A stretch of 64,000 bases of DNA from Metallosphaera hakonensis JCM 8857 = DSM 7519. GTDB lineage: Archaea > Thermoproteota > Thermoprotei_A > Sulfolobales > Sulfolobaceae. This document shows, in pieces, positions 10,523 through 55,496 of this stretch. The position numbers were made by a program, and so were the translations under genes. The notes beneath the pieces are model-generated. The model saw only the letters and a list, made by a program, of their open reading frames with translations. It searched no databases and was not told the origin of the DNA. How positions within the stretch are numbered: the stretch's first letter is position 1; each line of letters starts with the position of its first letter. The DNA is taken from positions 186,001 through 250,000 of the forward strand of contig NZ_CP029287.2 in NCBI RefSeq assembly GCF_003201675.2, given 5' to 3'.

Positions 10523-10881
10523 GCTATTCTCATGAAACCTGAGCTAAAATCTTTGAGCCCAATGAAGCTACAGTACTCATGATTCTTCACGAATCTCCAT
10601 TGAACTGCCATGATTCTCTCCGCACCGTCTCCTAGATCACATTCAGTCCAGATCTTTCAAGAGACCACGAAATTACGATTACGAGCACTAGTATTTCTGA
10701 CAAGTTCTCAGCTGGGGACAAGTGATGTCTAGGTCATATACTTACTGAAACTGCTAACGTCAAGTTCCAGGTCAAATGTAACGTGTTTCGTGAGAAATCA
10801 CACTGCGATATCCAGGATCACATGAATCCTAGGCAAATAAAAAATATTTAAACTCTATTATTTATCAAAACTGATGACCAC
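10523..10881. other. Divergent intergenic region with a family D element
   Basis: Contains the family D element at 10689-10756 and, at about 10846-10856, the TATA-like ATATTTAAACT that serves proC. No further ORF seen. Confidence 0.5.
10689..10756. repeat. Family D mini-element, intact copy
   Basis: A 68-bp palindromic element starting TAGTATTTCTGACAAGT and ending with an inverted relative of it (CTTACTGAAACTGCTA). It is flanked by the dinucleotide AC on both sides. A 68-bp copy with a nearly identical interior lies at 53433-53500. Confidence 0.75.
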
Positions 10882-22534: not shown

Positions 22535-22760
22535 TAGTACTTCCGAAAAGTTTAAAACATTCTGTAATGATCTAGAAGAATGGAAAATTTAGTAGGGGCT
22601 TGCGAGATGGAAAAGGACGTTAAGGTGAGGGAGAATGAGGCTTCCGAGTATAGATGTGTAAGAAACGTCGATTTCAGGTAAAATACGCAACTATAATTGA
22701 TAGTCCCAAAATACTTGGGGCTAGATAAAATTGAGTGTTCATAACTTTCCGGAAATACTA
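22535..22760. mobile_element. Family E: 226-bp IS630-derived MITE, copy 1
   Basis: The left ~105 bp match the start of the IS630 element at 33914-34962 (TAGTACTTCCGAAAAGTTT, then the transposase start ATGGAAAATTTAGTAG); the right ~47 bp match its other end (CTTTCCGGAAATACTA). The middle is a family C unit (22649-22697). The flanking dinucleotide is GT on both sides. It is an internal-deletion derivative mobilisable in trans. Confidence 0.8.
22649..22697. repeat. Family C hairpin element inside a family E MITE
   Basis: TATAGATGTGTAAGAAACGT at the start and CGCAACTATA at the end, between the two IS630-derived ends. Confidence 0.65.
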
Positions 22761-31560: not shown

Positions 31561-31622
31561 TAGTAGTTCCAGTAAGTATTTGCCCTAAAATCTGGCTGCC
31601 TAAGAACTTACCAGAAACACTA
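31561..31622. repeat. Family D mini-element
   Basis: A 62-bp element with ends TAGTAGTTCCAGTAAGTATT and AAGAACTTACCAGAAACACTA. The flanking dinucleotide is AC on both sides. Confidence 0.72.
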
Positions 31623-32770: not shown

Positions 32771-33352
32771 GTGGAAAGTGTGAAGTCCCAGAAAGAGAAC
32801 GAGCTGGACGTCGCGAGGAGCGAGTTCATCAGGGCCTTCAATTTCGTAACTGGGATACTTAGGATGAAGAGGCTGAGCAGGAAGGTCGCGTTGGGTTTAG
32901 CGCTCATGGTCTTGATCGGAGGAAGGGCAAGTATTAGGAACGCCTCCATCTCGTTCGGGCTGAACTACGCGAACTTGTTGAGGGCGCTGGAGCACCTGGA
33001 GGAAGCTTGGGGGAAGTACCTGGAGGCTTTGAGGGCGTTGATAGTTGGGCCGGTCGTGGTGATAGTTGACGACACCTTCGATCACAAGCTCTACTCCAGG
33101 GTTGAGAGCGTTGCCAGCAGGTACGGGAACTACTTCGCCTGGTGCTCCATGCACAAGGGGTACGAGTCCGGAGTGCAGGTCCTCACTGTGGCCCTGCACG
33201 ACTTGGGTACGGGAAGGAGCTACATGGTTGGGGCGTTCCCCTACGCCACGAGGAAGATGTGGGAGAGCGGGCAGGTGAGCGACTTTCGAACCAAGATCGA
33301 GATGGCTGCGGAGATGATTGAGGTCCTCAAGACCCGATTCCCCGTGGTAAGG
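32771..33352 (+). pseudogene. IS4-like transposase, 5' part
   Basis: The open frame from GTG 32771 encodes the N-terminal helical domain and the first catalytic Asp in VVVIVDDTFDHKLYSR. It runs into a 227-bp IS630-derived element at 33353, which adds a stop. The continuation is at 33580-33913. Confidence 0.72.
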
Positions 33353-33579
33353 TAGTACTTCCGAAAAGTTTAAAACGTTCTGTAATGATCTAGAAGAATG
33401 GAAAATTTAGTAGGGGCTTGCGAGATGGAAAAACGACGTTAAGGTGAGGGAGAATGAGGCTTCCGTATATAGATGTGTAAGAAGCGTCATTTTCAGGTAA
33501 AATACGCAACTATAATTGATAGTCCCAAAATACTTGGGGCTAGATAAAATTGAGTGTTCATAACTTACCGGAAATACTA
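33353..33579. mobile_element. Family E: 227-bp IS630-derived MITE, copy 2
   Basis: Nearly identical to the element at 22535-22760: ends TAGTACTTCCGAAAAGTTT and CCGGAAATACTA, with a family C unit inside (33468-33514). The dinucleotide GG flanks both sides. It interrupts the IS4-like transposase gene. Confidence 0.82.
33468..33514. repeat. Family C hairpin element inside a family E MITE
   Basis: TATAGATGTGTAAGAAGCGT at the start and CGCAACTATA at the end; two-to-three base changes from the copy at 22649-22697. Confidence 0.65.
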
Positions 33580-33913
33580 GGGTGGTGTTCGACTCCTGGT
33601 ATTGGTCGGAGAAGCTCGTGAAGGACAACGTGGTGTCTGAGCTGAAGTCCAACATGAGGCTCCTCAGGGTTAGGTCAGCGGAGGGAGAGGACGCGTTGGA
33701 GGTGGAGGGTCACCCCCACGTGGGAGATCTTCCTCCCGGATCTTACTTCGCTGACCTGACCCTGGGAGACCATGTCATTACAGTAAAGTTGTTGATACTG
33801 GAATATAAAGATAGCAGGCTCAACCTGTACACCACGGACCTGAACATGGAGGACGAGACGATCGAGGAGACCTGGAAGATCAGGTGGGAGATAGAGAAGT
33901 TACACAGGGACGT
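33580..33913 (+). pseudogene. IS4-like transposase, 3' part, truncated
   Basis: Continues the transposase: second Asp in VVFDSWYWSEKLV, and the YREK-like region WKIRWEIEKLHRDV with the third acidic residue. It breaks off at the IS630 element at 33914, whose other side does not resume the gene, so the C-terminus is lost. Confidence 0.7.
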
Positions 33914-33929
33914 TAGTATTTCCGGAAAG

Positions 33930-34469
33930 TTATGAACGCTCAATTTTATCAAGTCCCAAGTATTTTACTGCATTAAGGTTGAACTTGTAGTTATTTTCCG
34001 CGAAGAACTTCAGGATGCAGTCCCTCAGCTCGTCAAGCGAGCTGAAGAGCCTGTTGGACAGGTAAGCCTTGAGCTGTTTGAAGACGGCTTCCGCCAAGTT
34101 GAGCTCAGGGGAGTACTTGGGGATGTACTCCAGGTGTATCCCCTTCTTGGAGGAGACCTCCCGGACTCCCTGGGTCTTGTGGGGAGACGCGTTGTCCATG
34201 AAGAGGTAACTCCTACCCTTCCCGACCCTCCTCTTGAAGTAGCGCAGGAAGTACTTCACGGACTCGGAGTTGGGCCTGTCAGCAACTGTGAACACGACCT
34301 CCCCTGTCCACGCATTAACAGCGAGGAGGACGTAGGTCGAGGAGAAGCCCGTGTTGACCCTGAGGACTGGTTTACTCCCTCGTCTCGCCAGGACTCTTTT
34401 CACCAGGGTGCTGATCACGGCCCTGCACTCGTCGAAGAAGTACACCGCTTCGTCTGCCAATTCCTTCAC
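33930..34469 (-). CDS. IS630-family transposase, DDE part
   Basis: A 179-residue frame with the whole catalytic triad: Asp in VYFFDECRAVI, Asp in SYLFMDNASPHKT, and Glu in LNLAEAVFKQLK at the D35E spacing of IS630/Tc1-mariner enzymes. It begins with GTG 34469 inside the end of the HTH ORF. Joining to that ORF requires a +1 (or -2) change at an A7 run near 34470-34476. Catalytic residues are intact. Confidence 0.82.
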   Translation of the reverse strand: MKELADEAVYFFDECRAVISTLVKRVLARRGSKPVLRVNTGFSSTYVLLAVNAWTGEVVFTVADRPNSESVKYFLRYFKRRVGKGRSYLFMDNASPHKTQGVREVSSKKGIHLEYIPKYSPELNLAEAVFKQLKAYLSNRLFSSLDELRDCILKFFAENNYKFNLNAVKYLGLDKIERS

Positions 34470-34917
34470 TTTTTTTAAAATCGTCCCACTTCTCCCTTTC
34501 AGCCTTCACGTTTGTGGGCCTGGGCGTCACCAGCTCGTACCCGAGCTCGTGGACCAGCTCGTACAGCCTGGACTTCCTGTACTCCACTCCCCTCTTCAGG
34601 AGTACAACCTTGAGCGCCTTGACCGTCCAGAAGTCCTGCTCGATCCCGTAGTTCCTGGGCCCGTCCTCTAGGACCCTCTTCACATCCTCCTTCCCGGCCT
34701 TTCTGGGCCTCCCGGACCTGGGCCTATCCCTGAGGGCCTCTACCCCTCCCTTCCTGAACTTCCTCACCCACGTCCTCACCGTGGAGTAACCCTTGTTGAG
34801 GACCCTCGCGACCTCCACCTCCTTCATCCCGTCCACCACGTGCATCTTGACTGCTAGTATCCTCTCCCTCACCTTGACGTCCTTCTCCCTCTCGTAAGCC
34901 TCTACTAAATTTTCCAT
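34372..34917 (-). CDS. IS630-family transposase, HTH part
   Basis: A 181-residue frame whose first ~125 residues form the paired HTH DNA-binding region: VARVLNKGYSTVRTWVRKF, then DRPRSGRPRKAG and the winged segment TVKALKVVLLKRGVEYR. The C-terminal ~30 residues past the A7 run look like out-of-frame translation (RRSGVLLRRVQGRDQ), which supports the run as the junction with the catalytic ORF. Confidence 0.8.
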   Translation of the reverse strand: MENLVEAYEREKDVKVRERILAVKMHVVDGMKEVEVARVLNKGYSTVRTWVRKFRKGGVEALRDRPRSGRPRKAGKEDVKRVLEDGPRNYGIEQDFWTVKALKVVLLKRGVEYRKSRLYELVHELGYELVTPRPTNVKAEREKWDDFKKSEGIGRRSGVLLRRVQGRDQHPGEKSPGETRE

Positions 34918-35204
34918 TCTTCTAGATCATTACAGAACGTTTTAAACTTTTCGGAAGTACTAACGAGATAACCCTCTACACTCGGATAAGTTAGGCTGTG
35001 GAGGGACCCAGGATCATCAGGATTGATTGTTTTCAGTTCCTGTGAGACGCAGTTCCGTATTCCTTGACGGCTGAAGGGAGATCATCGTTCATTTAAAACA
35101 ATAAAAATCCAAGAAAAATTCAAGAAAAGCTCCCGCTTAGAATATAACACATGCTATGAAGCCCCTTGAAAGGAATTTATAACCCTGCTATAGATATATC
35201 TATT

Positions 35205-43901: not shown

Positions 43902-43925
43902 TAGTGTTTCTGGTAAGTTCTTACA
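43902..43925. repeat. Family D mini-element, single end
   Basis: Twenty-odd bases equal to the right end (inverted) of the copy at 31561-31622; the other end is missing. Confidence 0.4.
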
Positions 43926-44163
43926 GGGAGTTGGATTCGATATTTTAAGGAGATTTTGAGATAGACCCCGGCAATCCATGACTCCAAGGAAGTAGAAATC
44001 TGTTCAGACGGGGAGTCACAGATAATGAGTGCGCGTGTCTCCCTTTACCTGAACAACTTCACCTCTTGCCTCCTTTGACTATTCAGGGAAGATCGGGTTA
44101 CCATCACGAACCTGCAGTGTCCTGCCGAGATAACGAATATCCCTGAGTATACCGAAGTCACGT

Positions 44164-44230
44164 TAGTAGTTCCAATAAATACTTACCCTAGACATACCTT
44201 GCTCCACATGAATGAGTTATCAGACATGTT
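44164..44230. repeat. Family D mini-element, decayed copy
   Basis: Left end TAGTAGTTCCAATAAATACT and block CCCTAGACAT are clear; the right end is degenerate (GAGTTATCAGACAT). Confidence 0.4.
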
Positions 44231-53351: not shown

Positions 53352-53871
53352 TCAATACGGTTTACCTTTACCCCACCCGTATTCGCTGTACACCTGTCCC
53401 TTCCCTAAGCCCAGAATCACGGCTTGCCTCACTAGTATTTCTGACAAGTTCTCAGCTAGGGAAAAGAGATGTCTAGGTCAAATACTTACTGGAACTACTA
53501 ACGTAAGGAACCGTGTTTTCAGGTAGCTTGGATATTTCATACCACTCCAGCGCTCCCGTCTTGTCCGACTCCCTTATTGAAGGCTCTCCCTTCCATCTGG
53601 TGCACTTAAAGAAAAAGTCCACCCGCTCCTGGTTCTCGAATCTGTGCATAGCATGGACCAGGGAGAGATCTTCCCCTTCTATCTCTATCCCCGCCTCTTC
53701 TCTAGCTTCCCTAACCATAGCTTCCTTGGCTGATTCCTTAGCTTCAACGTGACCCGCTACGACGCTCCACCAACCGTCCCTATAGCCCGTGTTCTTCCTT
53801 AACTGTAAAAGTATCTTGTCCCCCTTTAACAGGAAGAGGTGTACAGAAAGGATCTGAGGATATCTGTTCAT
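53352..53871 (-). pseudogene. Nudix hydrolase gene cut by a family D element
   Basis: The Nudix box is perfect: G40-x5-E46-x7-REAREEAGI (residues 40-62), so the catalytic part is intact. The gene is interrupted at codon Val of PENTVPYV by the 68-bp element at 53433-53500, which adds SSSSKYLT and a stop (53473). Beyond the element the native frame continues with RQAVILGLGKGQVYSEYGWG and stops at 53352. The shortened product of 132 residues may still hydrolyse nucleotide diphosphates. Confidence 0.82.
53433..53500. repeat. Family D mini-element inserted in the Nudix gene
   Basis: A 68-bp element nearly identical to 10689-10756: starts TAGTATTTCTGACAAGTTCT and ends TTACTGGAACTACTA. AC occurs on both sides. 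Removing the element with one AC copy restores the Nudix frame. Confidence 0.85.
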
Positions 53872-54032: not shown

Positions 54033-55496
54033 ATGGACATAGAGGTAGCTTAGAGAATAGTAGCCGATCAGAGGGAAATGATGGAGGAGAAGCTTTCAAA
54101 CAATTATGTGAGAAGAGAGGTCAGAGGTGACATCTCTAAGTACTTAAGTTTTCCTAACGTCCTGGCCTTACTGGGGATAAGGAGGTCAGGAAAATCCACC
54201 CTGTCACTGATGCTTATGAAGGACTTGGGGAGAAGTTTGCTTACCTGAACTTTGAGGAGGAGATGCTCTACGGAGTCTCCACCAAGGATCTGAGAGATCT
54301 GGAACAGGCAATATATGAAGTTTATGGAACAGACGTGAATTACTTCGTTTTCGACGAAATCCACAACGTAAAGGGGTGGGAACTCTTTGTGACCAGACTA
54401 AAGGAGACCAAGAGGATAGTTGTGACGGGAAGTAACTCGAGGATGTTATCGGGTGAGCTGTCAACAGTACTCACAGGGAGGCACTTGGATCTCGTTCTCT
54501 TCCCTTTCTCTTTTAAGGAATACTTGCGTTTTAGGGGGGTCAGCGAAGATATCCCTCTCTCCACGAGACAGTGTCCGAAATGCAAATATTTCGGCGAAAA
54601 TATTGAAATGGAAACAGGGATTATTCTAGGTATAAGGTTGTATCTGGACAACCTGTAAACAGTCTATCGTTAGACTCCGTTCCCCGAGATAGATGATTCG
54701 AACTATGGGTAGAAAAATGATAAAAACACGAATATTCTCCACAATATAAATTGAATTTTTTACATTCCGGACATTCTCACGAGAGGGGTAGCTGGGATCA
54801 AGATCGAGTTAGGTAAGTACTTGGACACGGGAGGTTTTCCGGAGGCCCTCATGATAGGTAAAGAACAGGTGGATGTGATCTACAACGACATCCTCTTCAA
54901 GGATATAATGTTTAGATACAAAATCAGGGAGATGGAGAAGTTCAAAGACTTCTCCAGGAGTTTGATCTCCTACTACTCGTCGGAAGTGTCTTTGTCCAGG
55001 CTGGCTAAGATTGTGGAGGTTGATAAGAAGACCATCGATTTGTGGTCTTACGGCCTTGAAAACTCTTACTTAAACCTATTTCCTCCCCAGGTTCGGGGAA
55101 AAACCCAGGGAGAGATTAACTTTCAATAAGAAAGTGTATGTGGCGGACCCAGGGATTGTGTCGTGAGTTGGTTCGAAGTTTAAGGATGAAGGTAGAGTCA
55201 TGGAGAACGCGGTCTTCCTCAAATTGGCGAGGGACAATCAACTGAAGGGTTTATACTACATCAAGGGTAAGGACTTCGAAGTGGACTTTTACGATGAGGT
55301 GAACTCCAGATTGATCCAAGTAACCAGGGCATCCGACAAAGTGGATGAGCGGGAGATCAGGGGTATCGTGAAGGCCGAGAGCCTAGTACAAGCTAAAGAA
55401 CTCTTAATAGTGACTTACGATGTAGAGGGCGTTGAGAGGAGAGAAGGGAGAGAAATTAGGATGATACCCATCTATAAGTTCCTTCTCATGGGCTAA
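54033..55496 (+). pseudogene. AAA ATPase (AAA_14/DUF4143 type), decayed
   Basis: Fragments of one P-loop ATPase are spread over this stretch: Walker A GIRRSGKSTLSL, Walker B-like YFVFDEIHNVKG, sensor VVTGSNSRML, and the DUF4143 part with DTGGFPEALM and the C-terminal nuclease-like YYIKGKDFEVDFYDE. Damage includes a TAG stop at 54051-54053, one frameshift near 54226, a 209-bp element at 54569-54777, a second frameshift near 55105 and a TGA stop near 55165. Such ATPases are mobile, frequently lost genes in archaea. Confidence 0.8.
54569..54777. mobile_element. Family F: 209-bp MITE with 7-bp target duplication
   Basis: The element starts CAGTGTCCGAAATGCAAA and ends, inverted, AGAATGTCCGGAATGTAAA. 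CACGAGA flanks it on both sides (54562-54568 and 54778-54784). Deleting the element plus one CACGAGA restores the ATPase frame (PLSTRGVAGIKIELGKYL). No transposase for it is visible here. Confidence 0.85.

Follow-up and report, generated by a model that had tools for sequence, protein, structure and literature searches.

Does a small mobile element supply the stop codon of a Nudix hydrolase gene in Metallosphaera hakonensis JCM 8857 = DSM 7519 and, if so, what could have moved the element, and is the altered protein still an enzyme? The gene lies in the window analysed here, a stretch of 64,000 nucleotides of this archaeal genome. A preliminary description, made from the letters alone, had proposed that a 68-bp insertion ends the gene after eight additional codons, that the original C-terminus follows in frame just past the element, and that the insertion reshaped the gene but may not have destroyed it. 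To assess these proposals, we compared the locus with related genomes, collected the copies of the element, inspected the insertion sequences with similar ends and predicted the structures of the proteins concerned. The features of the window are compiled in Table 1.

The interrupted Nudix gene and its empty site

The present open reading frame runs on the minus strand from 53871 to a TAG at 53473–53475 and reads ...PENTVPYV-SSSSKYLT-TAG, in agreement with the preliminary description: the last eight codons and the stop fall inside the element at 53433–53500, while the preceding valine codon (GTT) takes its first two bases from the gene and its last one from the element. As a result, 25 C-terminal residues of the protein are exchanged for eight element-coded residues and a stop. 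The Nudix box GX5EX7REUXEEXGU, read from the sequence, is present as GHVEAKESAKEAMVREAREEAGI, the Pfam NUDIX match (8.8e-19) extends to residue 118, short of the break, and the frame is otherwise free of stops and frameshifts.

Searching 31 genomes of the family Sulfolobaceae in six-frame translation returned full-length Nudix orthologues (59–78% identity) in seven other family genomes, with an internal stop in one; a scan of genome contigs added the Metallosphaera yellowstonensis copy, identical in reading to the copy in genome G010. As anticipated for related Sulfolobales, all orthologues found keep the uninterrupted end PY(V/I)(R/K)(Q/K)A...Y(S/G)E(Y/F)GW, and its terminal GW is also present in two actinobacterial relatives. 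Orthologues ending in SSSSKYLT without an insertion had been named as evidence against the proposal; among those found in the seven other genomes, there was none.

The orthologue from the same genus provides the empty site, its DNA reading CCC-TAC-GTG-AGG-CAG-GCC as compared to CCT-TAC-GT-[68 bp]-GTG-AGG-CAA-GCC here. This identifies the target as C-GT-G with GT duplicated, and the insertion as exactly 70 bp, which leaves the old Nudix end out of frame. The 520 bp from 53352 to 53871 comprise the entire interrupted gene (450 bp plus these 70 bp), and without the element and one GT copy the gene reads on as VRQAVILGLGKGQVYSEYGWGKGKPY to a TGA at 53352–53354. The preliminary description was therefore right to place the old C-terminus just past the element and wrong to call it in frame, as the frame is restored only upon removal of the 70 bp. 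As the gene now stands, the frame is shifted and another stop comes after the TAG within the element, so that read-through of the TAG cannot reach the old C-terminus. TA as the duplicated pair, equivalent to a 66-bp insertion, was ruled out, since it would put the old C-terminus out of frame, and none of the orthologues shows TA in this position.

On the plus strand, an AAA-ATPase-like gene at 54078–55496 is seemingly split over several open reading frames and frames; it contains apparent foreign sequence near 54560–54820 and is probably broken.

Table 1 Features of the interrupted Nudix locus and of related mobile elements in the window.
Feature	Position	Strand	Basis or remark
Nudix hydrolase gene, present form	53473..53871	-	132 aa; Nudix motif intact; last 8 codons and TAG element-derived
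Stranded old 3' end of Nudix gene (...RQAVILGLGKGQVYSEYGWGKGKPY-TGA, from second base of interrupted triplet)	53352..53430	-	Out of frame with element present
68-bp MITE copy (TAGTA...TACTA)	53433..53500	- (strand of interrupted gene)	Genome copies; end-pattern search
2-bp target duplication, copy 1 (AC on +, GT on gene strand)	53501..53502	.	Flanks; same-genus empty site
2-bp target duplication, copy 2 (AC on +, GT on gene strand)	53431..53432	.	Flanks; same-genus empty site
Another 68-bp MITE copy	10689..10756	+	AC/AC duplication; intergenic
Diverged 68-bp relative, 65% identity	30522..30589	+	Sequence comparison
IS630-family insertion sequence, 1049 bp, probable transposase source	33914..34962	-	NF033545; ends; flanks; layout of other copies
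IS630 transposase, two overlapping frames across A7 run	34372-34917 and 33930-34469	-	NF033545 on frame-joined protein
~226-bp non-autonomous element, IS630-type ends, GG duplication	33354..33579	.	Left boundary uncertain by one base
Second 226-bp non-autonomous copy	22535..22760	.	IS630-type ends

Genome-wide copies of the 68-bp element

The M. hakonensis genome contains at least 43 distinct copies of the element with 73–100% identity to the copy in the Nudix gene, the number being a minimum because copies were collected by search and from genome stretches. Of these, 38 are exactly 68 bp long and the others 67 or 69 bp; the closest sister of the Nudix copy differs from it by a single base. 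The termini form imperfect inverted repeats of ~18 bp (TAGTATTTCTGACAAGTT / TAGTAGTTCCAGTAAGTA), and the consensus carries stops in five of six frames, with an open frame of 24 codons. Short, devoid of transposase coding capacity, bounded by inverted repeats and a target duplication, and present in many copies of fixed length, the element has the properties of a MITE. A degenerate pattern of the 18-bp ends (one mismatch allowed) occurred at 187 places, against six for the reversed control pattern, implying that older, more diverged copies exist as well.

Perfect 2-bp duplications flank 31 of the 43 copies, as compared to a mean of 7 and a maximum of 18 matches when left and right flanks were randomly re-paired (20,000 trials), and the match extends over 3 bp in only one of the 43. 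The duplicated pairs are AC, GT, GC, CC, AT, GG and GA, never TA. The target tends to C-NN-G: among the 31 duplicated copies, 25 have C on the left, 25 have G on the right and 19 have both. Given the 43 distinct copies and the lack of any orthologue ending in SSSSKYLT, the insertion into the Nudix gene is beyond chance; it is genuine and accounted for, as a MITE insertion of a familiar type.

The copies fold as imperfect hairpins of about -11 to -14 kcal/mol and mostly lie outside long open reading frames, features that might be expected of a functional structured RNA or a regulatory repeat instead of a transposon. However, elements with inverted repeats fold on themselves anyway, and the exact 2-bp duplications and empty sites contradict such a role. 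The copies are, moreover, scattered on either strand, also within transposase genes, and the element has no match in Rfam. We consider a function of this type highly improbable and treat the element as a MITE in what follows.

Searches of the other 30 family genomes returned one weak match only, and no match was obtained in plasmid and phage records. SM1–SM4, MITEs of Saccharolobus (Sulfolobus) solfataricus, occur in 25–44 copies (Redder et al. 2001, as cited in PMC10969869). Like these, the present element is short and non-coding, has inverted repeats and reaches tens of copies per genome; unlike them, it is abundant only in the M. hakonensis genome among the 31 of the family. SM1, which is tied to ISC1048, measures ~79–80 bp; the present element is 68 bp long.

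The window also contains a shortened copy of 62 bp with both MITE ends (31561–31622) and, at 43902–44230, two MITE-like ends on the plus strand (TAGTGTTTCTGGTAAGT at 43902 and TAGTAGTTCCAATAAAT at 44164), perhaps belonging to two broken copies.

IS630-type elements with similar ends

With respect to a possible source of transposase, the window harbors a full-length IS630-family element. Its frame-joined transposase matches NF033545 (E=2.2e-67; 227.6 bits, cut-off 100) and Pfam DDE_3, and the two-frame arrangement with the shared A7 run is repeated in other full IS630 copies, a layout that may reflect programmed frameshifting. The ends of the window element, TAGTATTTCCGGAAAGTT and TAGTACTTCCGAAAAGTT, are close to those of the MITE, and the 226-bp derivatives carry the same TAGTANTTCC ends as the IS630 element. 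Non-TA duplications of 2 bp accompany three of four full IS630 copies—the window copy itself has the non-matching flanks GT/AC—and five of seven copies of the 226-bp derivative. One of the latter (33354–33579) sits in an ISC1217-type transposase gene (32771–33355 and onward; Pfam DDE_Tnp_2), of which two intact copies elsewhere in the genome preserve the empty site AAGGGTGG, indicating that GG was duplicated upon insertion. The region 32771–33960 as a whole is nested mobile DNA, in which the 226-bp element breaks the ISC1217-type gene and the IS630 element follows directly.

Related insertion sequences in two further genomes, G013 and G014, measure 1044–1052 bp, have near-identical ends and encode transposases of 60–67% identity, with 2-bp non-TA duplications at 8 of 10 copies. 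We take them to be ISC1048, judging from their length; relative to such ISC1048-type IS630 sequences, the MITE lacks the whole transposase gene and internal sequence. The duplicated pairs at IS630 copies are GC, AC and GT in M. hakonensis and AC, GT, GC and CC in relatives. No TA duplication, the usual one for the IS630 family, was found at the copies in either; by transposase homology, the element at 33914–34962 is still a member of that family, one whose target rule differs.

G012 contains a 79-bp element with like ends, of which five or six copies occur in M. hakonensis. This family is distinct from the 68-bp family, yet both share a genome, and there is no evident similarity between its members and the 68-bp interior. 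In S. solfataricus, the counterpart of the IS630-type insertion sequence would be ISC1048, and that of the 79-bp-type element SM1. Members of the 79-bp family lie at genome positions 36150, 359462, 376208, 1679108 and 2482016 and are 81–87% identical to the G012 element.

Taken together, the 68-bp element is very probably a non-coding MITE that was inserted at codon 124 of the Nudix gene, presumably moved in trans by an IS630-family transposase. The transposase would recognize the similar ends and mobilize the MITE; the latter entered the C-GT-G site with duplication of GT, and the frame met by chance adds SSSSKYLT and TAG. The IS630 element of the window is probably the one that acted in trans: its ends resemble those of the MITE, both use 2-bp sites of the C-NN-G type, and they occupy the same genome. 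Since the likeness is confined to ~18 bp per end, with mismatches, while the 68-bp interior is unlike the IS630 element, the true partner could also be a related insertion sequence that is absent now. Derivation of the MITE by direct deletion from the IS630 element is unsupported, given that only the ends match. A further IS630-type transposase, at genome position 1848596–1849533, was rejected as partner because no matching ends were found nearby.

Studied members of the IS630/ISY100 (Tc1/mariner-like) group insert into and duplicate TA, as did 34 of 39 in vitro insertions (PMC2170065). The elements described here share the DDE transposase family and the 2-bp target duplication with that group. 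In contrast to it, the pair duplicated here is never TA, and TA begins the element's own ends, a pattern seen both in empty sites and in flanks. This may reflect an archaeal IS630 branch with a changed target rule, in which the terminal TA is carried in the element and the middle pair of C-NN-G is duplicated, a suggestion that we put forward tentatively and hold to be somewhat less probable than its opposite.

Consequences for the Nudix protein and other genes

AlphaFold2 modeled the full-length orthologue from the same genus with a mean pLDDT of 93, and the best fold match of this protein was the MutT/Nudix structure 4dyw. Its C-terminus is predicted to form a helix (122–133) and a strand (138–142) with a pLDDT of about 95, and both are included in the 25 residues lost. 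In the model of the truncated protein, the SSSSKYLT tail is disordered (pLDDT <50 at 125–132) and the remaining fold unchanged. However, predictions of truncated proteins tend to retain the parent fold, so the latter is no proof of stability. The models thus suggest that Nudix activity may be lost or weakened through the missing helix and strand, impaired function being the likelier outcome.

That the protein remains a working enzyme to which the element merely gave a new tail would fit the intact Nudix motif, the otherwise open frame, a Pfam match that ends ahead of the break and the unchanged fold. Yet the protein has lost the helix and strand that all of the Sulfolobales orthologues conserve, together with a GW end kept even by the actinobacterial relatives, and the tail acquired in exchange is predicted to be disordered. 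We hence regard a working enzyme as unlikely, and the preliminary assertion that the gene may have survived as doubtful: a mini-element was indeed inserted, as the copies and the empty site document, and the motif survives, but conserved structure was lost. This loss is rather what a recent pseudogene heading for decay would display, and we lean moderately towards that reading. The single-base difference from the sister copy indicates that the insertion is probably recent, which would explain why the gene, against expectation for a pseudogene, bears no other disabling change. Being known from one genome only, the insertion offers no measure of later selection.

Stops in five frames, together with a sixth frame that is open but displaced by one base through the 70 bp, imply that any insertion of the 68-bp element into a gene truncates it. 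Most copies interrupt no open reading frame of ≥80 aa. Judged from sequence readings, those that do lie within genes include copies in genes resembling those for a secreted protein (L039) and a glycosyltransferase (L063), and in transposase-like gene pieces (L032, L042, L058). At genome position 1289113–1290007 (L044/L197), the element lies at the extreme end of a 277-aa gene, replacing the final W by SISSKYST, while three homologues, from G030 and G014, terminate with YYW-stop; like tails have thus arisen twice. A preference for gene ends was rejected, as 5 of the 43 copies end an open reading frame of ≥70 aa, as compared to 2 to 8 at shifted controls from the same loci.

Small mobile repeats inside genes are known from ERIC/RU-1 and the Rickettsia palindromic elements (PMC2759123; reviewed in PMC10969869). 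As with these, the 68-bp element adds or replaces protein ends and can supply stops, although sequences and hosts are unrelated. Moreover, Rickettsia palindromic elements insert in frame and stay open, whereas the 68-bp element always truncates.

The Nudix gene represents a well-documented instance of a tiny mobile element recoding a protein end, with the exact empty site known; as a transposon truncation of a gene it is clean yet ordinary. For annotation, it advises caution, as SSSSKYLT-like C-termini in this genome are transposon-derived. Mildly unusual is that the IS630-type elements here duplicate the central pair of C-NN-G, with the terminal TA travelling along as part of the element. The common C-NN-G, non-TA duplications tie the MITEs to this IS630 branch and raise the question of how its transposase chooses targets.
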